The position numbers and the translations under genes were made by a program. The notes beneath the pieces were generated by a model. That model did not search any database. It was not told the origin of the DNA and was given only the letters and a program-made list of their open reading frames with translations. Shown piece by piece: positions 10,498-15,103 of a stretch of 34,492 nucleotides of DNA. Source of the stretch: Cyclobacteriaceae bacterium (GTDB taxonomy: Bacteria; Bacteroidota; Bacteroidia; Cytophagales; Cyclobacteriaceae); the NCBI GenBank assembly GCA_020436125.1, contig JAGQYK010000010.1:41571-76062 (forward strand), read 5' to 3'. Numbering within the stretch: position 1 is the first letter of the stretch; each line of letters begins with the position of its first letter.

Positions 10498-11124
10498 ATG
10501 CAAACTTTTACTATTGGTATTACTGGTGGAAGTGGATCTGGCAAAACACGGTTCATTCAGGATATGGCTGATCATTTCACATCAGATGAGATTTGCCTCG
10601 TTTCGATGGATCACTATTATAAACCTCTCGACCAGCAACCCCGAGATAACAATGGGATCGAAAACTTTGATTTGCCCAAGTCCATTGACTATGACGCATT
10701 GAAAGCTGATATACTGAAATTGAAACAGGGACAAATTGTAGTTAAAGAAGAGTATACATTTAATAACCCCCAAGCAAAGCCCAATCAATTGACTTTTAAG
10801 CCTGCGCCTATCCTTCTGGTAGAAGGGCTTTTTATTCAATACTTTGAAGAAATTGAAAAGGAACTTGATCTGAAAATTTTCATTGAGGCCAAGGATCACA
10901 TAAAATTAGGACGCAGAATTAGGCGAGACAAAGAGGAGCGTGGGTATGATCTGGATGATGTACTGTATAGGTATGAGCATCATACCATGCCTGTTTATGA
11001 TGAATTAATTGAGCCTCTAAAACACAAGGCAGATCTGGTGATACCTAACAACAGCGATTTCAAAGCGGCCATTGATGTACTAACAGGTTTTGTAAAGCTT
11101 AAATTAAGTGGTATTGCAAATTGA
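10498..11124 (+). CDS. udk: Uridine kinase family protein
   Basis: This 208-residue P-loop kinase phosphorylates uridine and cytidine in pyrimidine salvage. The Walker A motif GGSGSGKT is at residues 10-17. Other family markers are the SMDHYYKPLD region, NFDLPKSIDYD, PILLVEGLF and the lid RRIRRDKEERGYD. The ATG abuts the rdgB stop. The promoter proposed for the downstream small gene and secDF overlaps the last codons of this gene, so secDF can be expressed separately from the udk run. Confidence 0.93.
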   Translation: MQTFTIGITGGSGSGKTRFIQDMADHFTSDEICLVSMDHYYKPLDQQPRDNNGIENFDLPKSIDYDALKADILKLKQGQIVVKEEYTFNNPQAKPNQLTFKPAPILLVEGLFIQYFEEIEKELDLKIFIEAKDHIKLGRRIRRDKEERGYDLDDVLYRYEHHTMPVYDELIEPLKHKADLVIPNNSDFKAAIDVLTGFVKLKLSGIAN

Positions 11125-11143
11125 TGGCGATTCCATACTTTTG
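11114..11143 (+). promoter_or_regulatory. Candidate promoter for the small leader ORF and secDF
   Basis: TTG (11114-11116), a 19-base spacer, then TACTTTTG (11136-11143) match the Bacteroidota promoter consensus exactly in sequence and spacing. The element ends 8 bases before the ATG at 11152, so transcription should start only a few bases before that ATG, giving a nearly leaderless message. Confidence 0.6.
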
Positions 11144-11151
11144 TACCCCCT

Positions 11152-11481
11152 ATGCGAAATAGATCTTTTTTCAGAGTAATTATGATTGTGGTGGGCATTT
11201 TGGCCACTATAGCCATAGTGCTATCTCAGGCTCTTCCTGAGCAGGCTCCTGAAAAAGCGCAAACGGAGCAAACAGATCAGGATAAAGATGTAAAAATCCT
11301 TCCTGCTCCCTCTGATGTAGTGCCCGGAGGCATCGTTCAGGTAAACGATGCAGACAGGTCCTTGTTGGAGATTTTTGTCAACGAAGAACCTAAAATTCTT
11401 GAATTTGAGTGTGATGATCACATTCTATCAGCGTATTTGATCGTACTCTTCAGGGCTATCATTTCGCCCAATGCCCCGTAA
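11152..11481 (+). CDS. Unrecognised 109-residue membrane-anchored protein upstream of secDF; candidate leader or arrest peptide
   Basis: I do not recognise this family. It has a basic N-terminus (MRNRSFFR), one hydrophobic segment at about residues 8-26, a polar glutamine/glutamate-rich stretch (27-48), and a C-terminal part with a few hydrophobic runs ending FRAIISPNAP directly before TAA. A precise promoter element sits immediately upstream, and paired hairpins followed by secDF lie immediately downstream, with no other gene between. The distance from the membrane segment to the stop is about 83 residues, enough for the segment to have left the ribosome and entered the Sec machinery while the C-terminus is still in the exit tunnel. 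This fits a secretion-monitoring leader peptide, but a plain small inner-membrane protein is equally compatible with the sequence. Confidence 0.65.
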   Translation: MRNRSFFRVIMIVVGILATIAIVLSQALPEQAPEKAQTEQTDQDKDVKILPAPSDVVPGGIVQVNDADRSLLEIFVNEEPKILEFECDDHILSAYLIVLFRAIISPNAP

Positions 11482-11515
11482 ACCAATCTTCTGGTTGGTG
11501 GCGCTTGCCGCCATT
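11481..11515 (+). promoter_or_regulatory. Tandem hairpins between the leader ORF and secDF
   Basis: Directly after the leader-ORF stop lies AACCA/TGGTT (11481-11485 with 11492-11496), with an alternative ACCAA/TTGGT pairing (11482-11486 with 11495-11499). Next is TGGCG/CGCCA (11499-11503 with 11509-11513) with a CTTGC loop. The alternative first stem shares base 11499 with the second, so the pairings can compete. The following tail (TTTATTG) is a poor U-tract, so this is either a weak terminator or a switchable structure in the secDF leader. Confidence 0.45.
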
Positions 11516-11559
11516 TATTGATTTCTAATTAACATTTCATTTTTTAAATTTTATAAACA

Positions 11560-14500
11560 ATGCGTAACAAAGGAGTAGTAGTAGTCCTTACTATAATTAT
11601 AACTGCGTTGTGTCTTTATTACCTGTCGTTCACTTTCGTTTCAAGGAAAGTGCAGGAAGATGCAATCGCTTATGCCACCAATTCAAATGGTTCTGTGGAT
11701 TTGTCCAGAAAACAATCCTACATGGATTCGTTGTGGAGCAAGCCGGTGTACAATCTTTTTGGAGCTGAGTACACTTTCAAAGAAGTAAAAGAAAACGAGT
11801 TGAGCCTTGGTCTTGACTTGCAAGGAGGAATGCATGTAACACTGGAGATTTCTCCGGTGGATATTATAAAAGGGTTAAGTGGTAACAACCAAGATCCTGC
11901 GTTTATTTCCGCTCTTCAGAGTGCTGCTGAAATGCAAAAGTCTAGCCAGGAAAGTTACAGTACGCTTTTTTATGAAGCTTTTAAAGCAGCTAATCCTAAT
12001 CAAAACTTAGCTACATTATTTGCTTCTGCTGCCAATAAAGACCGCGTGAGCTTATCTGATGACGATAGCAAGGTGATGGCATTTATCAATGAGGAGATAG
12101 AAAGTGCAATTGATCGTTCGTTCACCATTCTTAAAACCCGTATCGACCAGTTCGGTACTTCTCAGCCCAATATTCAAAGGCTTCAGGGTACTGGAAGAAT
12201 TCAAATTGAAATTCCTGGTGCTGACAACCCAGCCAGGGTAAGAAAATTATTGCAAGGCGTAGCCCAACTTGAGTTTTGGGAAATTATAGAATACAATGAT
12301 GAGCAACTGAATCAGTCTCTATTTGCAATCAATGAGAAATTGGTGAAGGAGCAGAATGCTTCTAAGGCACTGGAGACTACAAATACTACTGCTGATCTTA
12401 AAGATGCATTGGTTGATACAGCTGATAGTACAAAGTCATTGTTAGAGGAGCAATTAAGCCAGGTACAAGACAGTGCCAGCAATCCATTGGATTCGATTAC
12501 AAATTCTAATCTTTCTCCTTTATTTGCTTTAAGTAATCCTGGTATTCCGTTTTTGTATGATGTAAAAGATACAGCAACAATTAACAGAATTCTTTCTCGT
12601 CCTGATATCAAAGCTTTGCTACCACGTAACATCTCTTACCGTTGGGATGTAAAAGCTGAACCAGAGATTACCCCTAATGTTGATGACCTTCGCTTAAATT
12701 TTGTCAACGTGTCGAGAAATGGAAAACCACTATTGACAGGCGAGGTAATTAATGATGCTAGACTTGATTATGACCAATTTGCAAGACCAGCAGTAAGCAT
12801 GACAATGAATGCGGCCGGTTCTCGTGCCTGGTCTAAGATTACGGCAGCAGCAGCAGCTAAATCACCTCCAGGAAGAATCGCTATTGTTCTTGATAACTAT
12901 GTGTATACAGCACCTACCGTTCAAGGCGAGATTCCAAATGGAAATTCACAAATCACTGGAAGTTTTGAATTGGAGGAGGCAAAAGACCTAGCAAATGTTT
13001 TGAAAGCAGGATCCTTGCCAGCGCCTACAAGAATTGTGGAGGAAGCTATCATAGGACCAACACTAGGTAAAGTGGCACAAAGCCAAGGGGTGATTTCTAT
13101 GGCTTGTGGATTGGCTATTGTTGCGTTATTTATGATTGCCTATTACTCTAAAGGTGGTTGGGTAGCCAATCTTGCTTTGTTGTTCAATATCTTTTTTATC
13201 CTTGGGATTTTGGCGCAGTTGAACGCTGCACTTACACTTCCAGGTATTGCTGGTATAGTACTTACGATGGGTATGGCAGTGGATGCCAACGTACTTATAT
13301 ATGAACGGATTAAGGAAGAGCTAAAAATGGGCAGTATGCTCAAAGAGGCGATTAAGAAAGGTTACAGCAGAGCATTCGATACGATTTTTGACTCTAACGT
13401 AACGACCATGCTTACCGCCATCTTCCTATTCGTATTTGGGCAAGGGCCACTAAAAGGTTTTGCCATTGTTTTGATGATTGGTATCGCAACTTCATTTTTC
13501 TCTGCAGTTTACATTTCGCGAGTAGTAGTGGAGTGGATGACTAGAAAAGGAGATCATGCCAAGGTTTCATTTGATTCGGTAATTGCTAAGAATATCCGTG
13601 AGCGCAAATACTATAACTTTATTGGGTATAGAAGATTAGCTTATACCATCTCGGGTGCAATCACCTTAATTGGTTTTATCCTTATTGGTATTAACGGATT
13701 GAATCTGGGTGTCGATTTCAAAGGAGGAAGATCGTATGTGGTTGCGTTTAACTCACCTGTAGTAGCTACAGATATGAAGCTTGCACTAACAGAGGGATTT
13801 GATAATAAGGGTACGGAGGTGAAAACCTACGGAAGCAGCAATGTAGTTAAGGTAACTACCTCTTATTTGGTTGAAGATGAGTCTGATGTAGCAGATACTA
13901 AAGTAAAGGATGCACTTGTAAATGGTTTAGAGAAGTTCACAGGGCTCGAATTCATTGATAACGATGCTAAGGTGGATGAGACACACTTTTCTATTCTATC
14001 ATCCTCAAAAGTAGGGGCGACTATCGCAGATGACATTAAGGACTCAGCCTTTGAAGCAGGAATTTATTCTCTGGTGGCTATTTTCTTGTTTATCCTTATT
14101 CGCTTTAAAAAATGGCAATTCAGTACTGGTGCGATTGTGGCTACCGCTCACGATGCCCTTTTTGTGGTGGCCATATTTGGTATAGCTGGTGCTTTTGGAT
14201 TCTCCTTTGAAATTGACCAAGTGTTTATTGCAGCGCTTCTATCAATCATAGGATATTCAATCAATGATACAGTGATCATCTTTGACAGGATCAGAGAGTA
14301 TACCGGACTGGGCACAACCCATGACAGGCTGAAAGTATTTAATGATGCCATCAATAGTACGCTAAGTAGAACTTTGATTACATCAGGTACCACCATGATT
14401 GTGGTGTTGGTATTGTTGTTCTTTGGTGGTGAAGTACTAAGAGGATTTTCTTTTGCTTTATTCGTTGGAATACTAGTGGGAACCTTCTCATCCATCTTCG

Positions 14501-14562
14501 TTGCAGCATCGGTTGTATATGACTTGGATAAGAAAAAATCGATAAACCCAAGTGTTGCTTAA
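11560..14562 (+). CDS. secDF: Fused protein translocase subunit SecDF
   Basis: This 1000-residue fusion of SecD and SecF uses the proton-motive force to help pull proteins across the inner membrane after SecYEG. SecD marks are the N-terminal membrane helix, GLDLQGGMHV (about 84-93), a large periplasmic P1 region, and a TMGMAVDANVLIYERI motif (about 569-584) whose aspartate lies in the proton path. SecF begins near residue 690, with GVDFKGGR (about 715) and IGYSINDTVIIFDRIRE (about 895-911). A Ser/Thr/Asp-rich stretch at about 265-330 enlarges the P1 region. Fused SecDF is normal in Bacteroidota. The leader ORF and hairpins just upstream suggest regulation. A strong terminator ends the unit. 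Confidence 0.97.
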   Translation: MRNKGVVVVLTIIITALCLYYLSFTFVSRKVQEDAIAYATNSNGSVDLSRKQSYMDSLWSKPVYNLFGAEYTFKEVKENELSLGLDLQGGMHVTLEISPVDIIKGLSGNNQDPAFISALQSAAEMQKSSQESYSTLFYEAFKAANPNQNLATLFASAANKDRVSLSDDDSKVMAFINEEIESAIDRSFTILKTRIDQFGTSQPNIQRLQGTGRIQIEIPGADNPARVRKLLQGVAQLEFWEIIEYNDEQLNQSLFAINEKLVKEQNASKALETTNTTADLKDALVDTADSTKSLLEEQLSQVQDSASNPLDSITNSNLSPLFALSNPGIPFLYDVKDTATINRILSRPDIKALLPRNISYRWDVKAEPEITPNVDDLRLNFVNVSRNGKPLLTGEVINDARLDYDQFARPAVSMTMNAAGSRAWSKITAAAAAKSPPGRIAIVLDNYVYTAPTVQGEIPNGNSQITGSFELEEAKDLANVLKAGSLPAPTRIVEEAIIGPTLGKVAQSQGVISMACGLAIVALFMIAYYSKGGWVANLALLFNIFFILGILAQLNAALTLPGIAGIVLTMGMAVDANVLIYERIKEELKMGSMLKEAIKKGYSRAFDTIFDSNVTTMLTAIFLFVFGQGPLKGFAIVLMIGIATSFFSAVYISRVVVEWMTRKGDHAKVSFDSVIAKNIRERKYYNFIGYRRLAYTISGAITLIGFILIGINGLNLGVDFKGGRSYVVAFNSPVVATDMKLALTEGFDNKGTEVKTYGSSNVVKVTTSYLVEDESDVADTKVKDALVNGLEKFTGLEFIDNDAKVDETHFSILSSSKVGATIADDIKDSAFEAGIYSLVAIFLFILIRFKKWQFSTGAIVATAHDALFVVAIFGIAGAFGFSFEIDQVFIAALLSIIGYSINDTVIIFDRIREYTGLGTTHDRLKVFNDAINSTLSRTLITSGTTMIVVLVLLFFGGEVLRGFSFALFVGILVGTFSSIFVAASVVYDLDKKKSINPSVA

Positions 14563-14632: not shown

Positions 14633-15103
14633 TTAGTTGTTAGCGGTTTCTACTCGAATGCCAACTGAGAGAATGCCCTTCAGGGTATCTAATCGATTGA
14701 ATTGCTCAAGGGTAATAGCATACATCCCTGGCTTGTCGAAATGATAATTAGTAACAATGGGAAAGCGATGATCAAACAAATCACCAATGCTACTATTGCC
14801 AAAGGGCTCACCACTTTTTTGATCGAACAAGTAGGCAGAAAGAAGATCTTTTCTCAACTGCGAATCAGTTGAATCTGCTAAAGTATAGTTTACAAAAATT
14901 CTTGAGAATGGAAAATCCAACGAGTTGCGAACTGTATAGTAAAGGTTGTAGTTCTGGGTATGATCCTTTATCTCAAATTCGAAGTGCGGCTTATCTTGTA
15001 CTAACCAGGCTTTTTCCGAAAAGTCAACTTGTTGTTCGTAAATACGCGATTGGTCACAGGAGAATAAAACCAGCAATGACATCAAAACTAAAAATCGTCT
15101 CAT
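14633..15103 (-). CDS. gldH: Gliding motility lipoprotein GldH
   Basis: This 156-residue lipoprotein has a short signal with lipobox LFSC (C16) followed by a beta-rich domain. Recognisable family features are the YEQQVDF...W start of the mature part, NLYYTVRNSLDFPFSRIFVNY, an F-G-NSSIGDLFDHRFPI stretch and the FDKPGMYAITLEQF ending. GldH is one of the lipoproteins required for gliding and for the type IX secretion machinery in Flavobacterium-type bacteria; its exact role is unsettled. Its ATG overlaps the ricT stop (ATGA), so it should be translationally coupled to ricT, a pairing I also recall from other Bacteroidota. The presence of gldH alone does not prove that this organism glides. Confidence 0.85.
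   Translation of the reverse strand: MRRFLVLMSLLVLFSCDQSRIYEQQVDFSEKAWLVQDKPHFEFEIKDHTQNYNLYYTVRNSLDFPFSRIFVNYTLADSTDSQLRKDLLSAYLFDQKSGEPFGNSSIGDLFDHRFPIVTNYHFDKPGMYAITLEQFNRLDTLKGILSVGIRVETANN

Follow-up and report, generated by a model that had tools for sequence, protein, structure and literature searches.

A putative Sec-monitoring arrest peptide of the uDF_NAP-stop kind ahead of secDF in a Cyclobacteriaceae bacterium

A small open reading frame lies between a promoter and secDF in a Cyclobacteriaceae bacterium and raises the question of whether its product monitors Sec export by stalling its own ribosome, and by what route a stalled ribosome could then raise secDF expression. The DNA analysed, called the window here, is a stretch of 34,492 nucleotides (nt) (GenBank assembly GCA_020436125.1, contig JAGQYK010000010.1, positions 41,571 to 76,062, forward strand). 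An earlier reading of the sequence made without database searches (the sequence-only reading) had proposed a secretion-monitoring leader of 109 residues, with an N-terminal membrane segment and the ending FRAIISPNAP-stop, ahead of secDF. This open reading frame was found again (Table 1). With a probability of about 0.85, it encodes a Sec-monitoring arrest peptide of the uDF_NAP-stop kind that raises secDF when stalled.

The uDF_NAP-stop kind was described by Fujiwara et al. 2024 (PMC10987492) as 396 open reading frames upstream of secDF, chiefly in subsets of three Bacteroidota orders, each with an N-terminal localisation signal; that description puts weight on the C-terminal N-A-P. The upstream open reading frame (uORF) of the window is oriented as secDF and lies directly before it, with a gap of 78 nt. 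Sequence and hydropathy give an N-terminal membrane segment, and about 81 residues separate its end from the C-terminus (about 83 in the sequence-only reading), a spacer of more than 30 residues as in the published kind. The peptide ends with N-A-P followed by the stop codon. Motif, gene order, architecture and the Bacteroidota host all match, and the sequence thus supports placing the uORF in the published kind. The earlier idea of stalling is supported, but the C-terminal motif is one already known. For the published family, PMC10987492 reports peptidyl-tRNA at about 30–50% with E. coli ribosomes and >50% with B. subtilis ribosomes, a requirement for the stop codon plus positions −3 and −1 (counted back from the stop), and toeprints of a member that place the stop codon in the A site. 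The expected position of Pro109 in the P site is taken from those toeprints.

Table 1. Features around the uORF (window coordinates).
Feature	Position	Strand	Remarks
PRK/uridine-kinase-family gene	10498–11124		upstream of the uORF
Promoter TTG-N19-TACTTTTG	11114–11143	+	overlaps end of PRK-family gene; very short 5′ untranslated region predicted
uORF, putative arrest peptide of the uDF_NAP-stop kind	11152–11481	+	109 amino acids (aa); from sequence, relatives and PMC10987492
N-terminal membrane/signal-anchor segment, residues ~9–28	11176–11235	+	positively charged N-terminal flank; from sequence, hydropathy and charge over relatives
Variable spacer, residues 29–95	11236–11436	+	from pairwise identity of 29 sequences
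Arrest motif LFRAIISPNAP, residues 99–109	11446–11478	+	Pro109 expected in P site
Stop codon TAA	11479–11481	+	expected in A site of stalled ribosome (PMC10987492)
Hairpin 1	11481–11496	+	within or at edge of assumed footprint of stalled ribosome; from folding
Hairpin 2	about 11497–11512	+	T-rich tail follows; counterpart of the gap hairpin of most relatives
G-poor, A/T-rich stretch before secDF	11535–11559	+	no Shine-Dalgarno sequence
secDF	11560–14562	+	1000 aa; presumed regulated gene, downstream of the uORF
GldH-type gliding lipoprotein gene	14633–15103	−	convergent to secDF

A search of 58 related genomes gave a match reaching the last residue in 31 of the 36 genomes of the same genus, the bacterium's own included; weak matches in other genera stop short of the last residue. 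I[SA]P[NQ]AP-stop is present directly before secDF in 30/30 loci fetched. Twenty-nine sequences were aligned (alignment A1, loci found by whole-protein search; L024 was excluded because its N-terminal part sits in another frame) and show a mean pairwise identity of 0.38 for residues 1–8, 0.47 for residues 9–27, 0.27 for residues 28–94 and 0.69 for residues 95–109. Conservation of the C-terminus, which the sequence-only reading could not demonstrate and for which it had proposed such an alignment, is now demonstrated among relatives (69% in the last 15 residues versus 27% in the spacer). Relative to the three nearest relatives, the third compared over the last 60 codons only, the last 11 codons show 0 amino acid changes and 2, 2 and 6 silent changes, residues 95–98 show 3 amino acid changes against each, and the spacer shows 12, 22 and 16. 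The stop codon is free to vary (TAA 42, TGA 19, TAG 16 in 77 distinct loci), as are the third bases of the last codons, which argues that selection acts on the peptide; these 77 loci were picked by their C-terminal pattern, and the claims of conservation rest on the other comparisons. Among the 108 first loci, four fail the C-terminal pattern: two of these end QSPNAP before secDF and the remaining two are L049 and L053. Taxa of 50 relatives comprise Cyclobacteriaceae, Flammeovirgaceae, Cytophagales, Bacteroidetes, Bacteroidia, Fulvivirga, Marivirga, Ekhidna and Chryseosolibacter.

At L024 and L079 (G024, CP058703.1) the membrane part seemingly lies in another frame and the C-terminal part still ends SPNAP before secDF. 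The frame split seems to be either real decay or a sequencing error.

These comparisons also bear on whether the uORF product is simply a small membrane protein with an ordinary role, e.g. as an accessory subunit of SecDF. The membrane segment is fairly conserved (0.47) and secDF is the neighbour in all 30 loci, as such a protein might show, but the spacer is variable, conservation runs right up to the stop codon, and the published family stalls in a stop-dependent manner (PMC10987492). In addition, the 109 aa protein has zero Pfam matches at E ≤ 1, and family scans of 29 members gave only scattered weak matches, the commonest being TIGR03593 (YidC N-terminus) in 6/29 members with a best E-value of 0.001, which most likely stems from the membrane segment. 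An ordinary membrane protein is thus very improbable. Neither Pfam nor the family scans offer a credible known family for the product. A YidD-like C-terminus was also considered and ruled out, as the frame ends there and Pfam has no family for the protein.

How widespread the uORF is was assessed from secDF itself. SecDF was found in 117/118 genomes of the order Cytophagales, and for 118 copies the preceding 900 nt were examined; the bacterium's own genome is outside this sample and two genomes contribute two copies each. A uORF was called when a frame of 70–230 codons with a membrane segment ended [AG]P-stop, with the stop within the last 400 nt before secDF. Such a uORF is present at 104/118 loci, while 0/127 antisense frames of the same length end [AG]P-stop, a membrane segment not being demanded of these controls. 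All 10 genomes of ≤1.6 Mb (sizes rounded) lack the uORF, whereas 104/108 loci of larger genomes have it. The other four misses are L117, L142, L160 and L217; L117 has a frame ending RHAP-stop that falls below the hydropathy cut-off.

The uORF-less loci of the small genomes (L112–L114, L116, L125, L152, L164, L165, L225, L226) belong to three families and keep secDF, as if export feedback had been lost along with genome reduction. Genomes G090 (L174/L175) and G098 (L210/L211) carry two secDF copies each, and a uORF is present at all four full copies.

Outside the order but in the same class, 0/20 and 2/40 loci have a uORF (2/60 in total), the 40 being picked from 67 genomes with a match and other lineages being unsampled. 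The uORF at L323 ends IQPAQAP and fits the motif well; that at L320 ends FCAAP and fits poorly. A profile search found matches at E ≤ 0.01 in 75/390 genomes of the order, a few of these by partial or N-terminal matches; this count underestimates the spread because the profile was built from one genus. Of 295 other genomes in the class, five gave weak matches to the N-terminal part only, and absence outside the order is not proven by this since genomes within the order escaped the profile too.

The 104 uORFs of the order display a motif wider than N-A-P. F or L is found at position −10 in 98, I, L or V at −6 in 94, N or Q at −3 in 93 and A at −2 in 99, the −2 and −1 columns carrying little weight because the survey selects on [AG]P-stop. 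P at −4 is found in just 46. The conserved stretch would span the part of the tunnel between the peptidyl-transferase centre and the constriction. In L171–L173, IST[KQ]GP-stop replaces ISPNAP-stop, and in L120, L124 and L137 ALSPQAP-stop does so; both are lineage-specific variants.

A search of whole genomes for I[SAT]PNAP followed by T[AG][AG] matched 95/148 genomes of the family, with 2 matches for the reversed pattern; 53/148 have no exact I[SAT]PNAP-stop match. The pattern also admits TGG, and three listed matches end in this codon. Nine genomes have two matches. In the 7 of these that were examined, the match in a long frame lies before secDF and the other is a chance frame of 7–33 codons, so none of these second matches is a second genomic target of the motif; in the remaining two (G564, G383) the second match has TGG as its last codon.

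Across 175 loci the membrane segment lies a median of 93 residues from the stop (5–95% range 85–115), so that the nascent chain is able to extend outside the ribosome. The signal anchor would be inserted during synthesis of the chain. When Sec export is slow, the C-terminal motif (a hydrophobic residue then F/L at −11/−10, I at −6, N/Q at −3, A at −2, P at −1) would keep the peptide from being released while the stop codon occupies the A site, and the stalled ribosome would raise secDF expression. With brisk export, pulling force would free the chain, the ribosome would depart and secDF would go back to its basal level. We infer stalling by this peptide, its relief by export force and the induction of secDF.

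secDF seems to rely on transcripts that also cover the uORF. The promoter that the sequence-only reading placed before the uORF is present, ending 8 nt before the ATG; we take TTG-N19-TACTTTTG to be of the Bacteroidota type. A sigma-70 scan of positions 11000–11700 yielded a single promoter-like site against 1.8 expected, and this one lies on the minus strand. TAnnTTTG occurs between −70 and +12 nt of the uORF start in 144/175 loci (12/175 after letter shuffling) and inside the gap in only 3/175 loci, versus 14/56 control gaps; the control gaps here and below were taken from three genomes whose genes were predicted with a simple long-open-reading-frame rule. As TAnnTTTG is found at the uORF start and is rare in the gap, secDF transcripts should traverse the uORF.

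The gap itself carries RNA structure. The paired hairpins that had been noted right after the stop codon fold as described (11481–11496 and 11497–11512). The first 40 nt from the stop fold with z = −3.6 (0/200 shuffles as good) and the 82-nt gap with z = −2.8 (2/200), while a 142-nt stretch around the gap reaches z = −1.5 only (19/200). In 172 of the 175 gaps the mean z is −2.3, with 128 under −1. The 155 gaps of ≤160 nt average −2.37 versus −1.26 in 56 control gaps (Mann-Whitney p = 8e-5, a value that, like the covariation shuffles that follow, ignores the kinship of loci related by descent). In a clade of seven loci, a 10-bp stem is paired in 88.6% of its cells and scores 0.476 for covariation, and 1/500 shuffles attains each of these values. 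Pairs changed on both sides number 4, a count attained by 63/500 shuffles. The stem is not equally clear in all clades, because consensus folds of 12 hand-chosen clades range from ≤−9.5 kcal/mol (three) through −2.8 to −0.1 kcal/mol (six) to none (three).

A hairpin ahead of secDF could be a switch of the SecM type, in which the hairpin masks the ribosome-binding site and a stalled ribosome unmasks it. That gap hairpins exceed shuffles and control gaps and show paired changes in one clade fits such a switch, and the route has been demonstrated for a RAPP-type uORF (PMC10987492). But a Shine-Dalgarno core precedes secDF at only 1/175 loci, and control genes have 0/56; the absence of this sequence is the rule in these genomes. 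We assume the footprint size and the Shine-Dalgarno cores used. The last 25 nt before secDF contain 3.5% G versus 12.5% in controls. Main hairpins start >10 nt after the stop, beyond the assumed footprint, in 114/137 loci, their 3′ end lies a median of 48 nt before the secDF ATG, and a slope of 0.49 favours neither the stop nor the ATG as their anchor. In a model of the stall, the ribosome is assumed to mask the RNA from 17 nt upstream of the first base of the stop to 13 nt downstream of it. The energy needed to open the secDF start then shifts by a median of about 0 kcal/mol, with shifts below −1 in 13/153 gaps and 10/56 control gaps. Ribosomes of Bacteroidia are moreover reported not to recognise Shine-Dalgarno sequences (PMC9976891). 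Since secDF has no Shine-Dalgarno sequence and no effect of a stall on its start is predicted, unmasking is quite unlikely and is rejected as the general route. The leader proposed by the sequence-only reading thus stands in its conserved C-terminus, variable spacer and published stalling kin, but its hairpins do not resemble the Shine-Dalgarno switch of SecM.

The hairpin could also be an intrinsic attenuator, that is, a hairpin with a T-tract that terminates transcription unless a stalled ribosome averts termination. In the window, hairpin 2 (about 11496–11513) is followed by TTTATTGATT, and terminator-like sites are found in 32/153 gaps where shuffles predict 5.0. Control gaps, however, are equally enriched (8/56 versus 1.4 expected), so the enrichment is not specific to uORF-secDF gaps, and 121/153 gaps carry no such site. 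With the part held by the stalled ribosome removed, hairpin 2 still stands, which is the wrong polarity; we regard this form of attenuation as unlikely. Competition between the two hairpins was tried and rejected, as both stand together in the predicted fold of the window and the downstream one would persist under a stall, again the wrong polarity.

For the arrest peptide, the readout that we tentatively favour, at somewhat less than even odds, is a TnaC-like one, in which a ribosome on the stop codon would prevent transcription from ending in the gap and the polymerase would reach secDF. Remodelling of the gap RNA is a possible, rather doubtful alternative, and protection of the mRNA a weaker candidate still. 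Rho as the terminating factor is just a favoured guess because T makes up 0.40 of the sequence that follows the stop, versus 0.31 in controls, and C is no more frequent there than in the control gaps.

Several points weigh against the arrest peptide and its proposed working. The T-rich, C-unenriched gap gives nothing directly for Rho; 5/36 genomes of the genus have no match to the last residue; and 14/118 loci of the order gave no [AG]P-stop uORF. In PMC10987492, E. coli ribosomes stalled on just 30–50% of the uDF_NAP-stop product, arrest-dependent induction of secDF is demonstrated only for a RAPP-type uORF, and force relief of NAP-stop is not among the tests described. A literature search, whose coverage leaves out preprints and most subscription papers, found no experiment in a host of this order and no second NAP-stop report, and we know of none on this peptide. 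The other paper that this search gave on arrest peptides, secDF and Bacteroidota is PMC12992588, the abstract of which concerns RAPP-like peptides.

The best-understood Sec monitors work by exposing a Shine-Dalgarno sequence. Because Bacteroidia ribosomes are reported not to read these signals, the coupling step must differ here, and the interest of a monitor kept in most of the order lies in how a stall is read out in a Shine-Dalgarno-blind lineage. It is a nearly even chance that Cytophagales have a Sec monitor that needs no Shine-Dalgarno switch, in which a release-blocked ribosome at the uORF stop codon, beside a gap hairpin, controls secDF by a route new to export monitors. Such a monitor would be near-universal in those genomes of the order that are larger, might be ancestral there, and would have disappeared as genomes shrank. 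If true, the route could be TnaC-like antitermination or stall-dependent protection of the mRNA. The coupling step can be put to a direct test through the gap hairpin, the one promoter upstream and the extended motif. Where the uORF is kept and where it is lost offers a natural experiment on the conditions under which cells can do without export feedback.

VemP of Vibrio and SecM are likewise exported arrest peptides that control secDF or secA, but they have other arrest sequences and arrest elongation before the stop codon. The SecM sequence FxxxxWIxxxxGIRAGP, found before secA, is absent from the window peptide, as the sequence-only reading had said, and the gene downstream is secDF. SecM acts by freeing a Shine-Dalgarno sequence (PMC10987492). 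ApdA, ApdP and the RQH family are also exported, stalling uORFs of secDF (or secA) but differ in a RAPP-like motif, the third codon of which is in the P site, so that they do not stall on a stop codon (PMC10987492); the earlier reading was likewise right that no RAPP-like motif is present near the C-terminus here. uA_NSP-stop shares the stall on the stop codon and the Pro at −1 but lies upstream of secA in Sphingobacteriaceae and ends N-S-P (PMC10987492).

In TnaC, the leader of E. coli tnaCAB, the ribosome holds Pro in its P site and the stop codon in its A site, release is blocked (PMC8429421, PMC3902921), the stalled ribosome shields the RNA from Rho (PMC8429421), and I19 of 24, five residues before the final Pro (−6), is important (PMC3902921). 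The window peptide has the corresponding Pro109 and Ile104, and I, L or V at −6 is shared by most uORFs of the order as given above. However, the Trp at −13 and Asp at −9 of TnaC are replaced by Ile97 and Arg101. TnaC is 24 aa long, senses L-tryptophan through W12 and D16 and is not known to carry an export signal. The likeness to TnaC is thus an analogy rather than membership because Trp and Asp are absent here, and TnaC may be regarded as the closest system known to work in which a ribosome is held at a stop codon that follows a Pro codon. To the published uDF_NAP-stop kind, the present analysis adds a wider motif (−11/−10 and −6), variants at −3 and −2, a promoter, a gap hairpin and the spread within the order.

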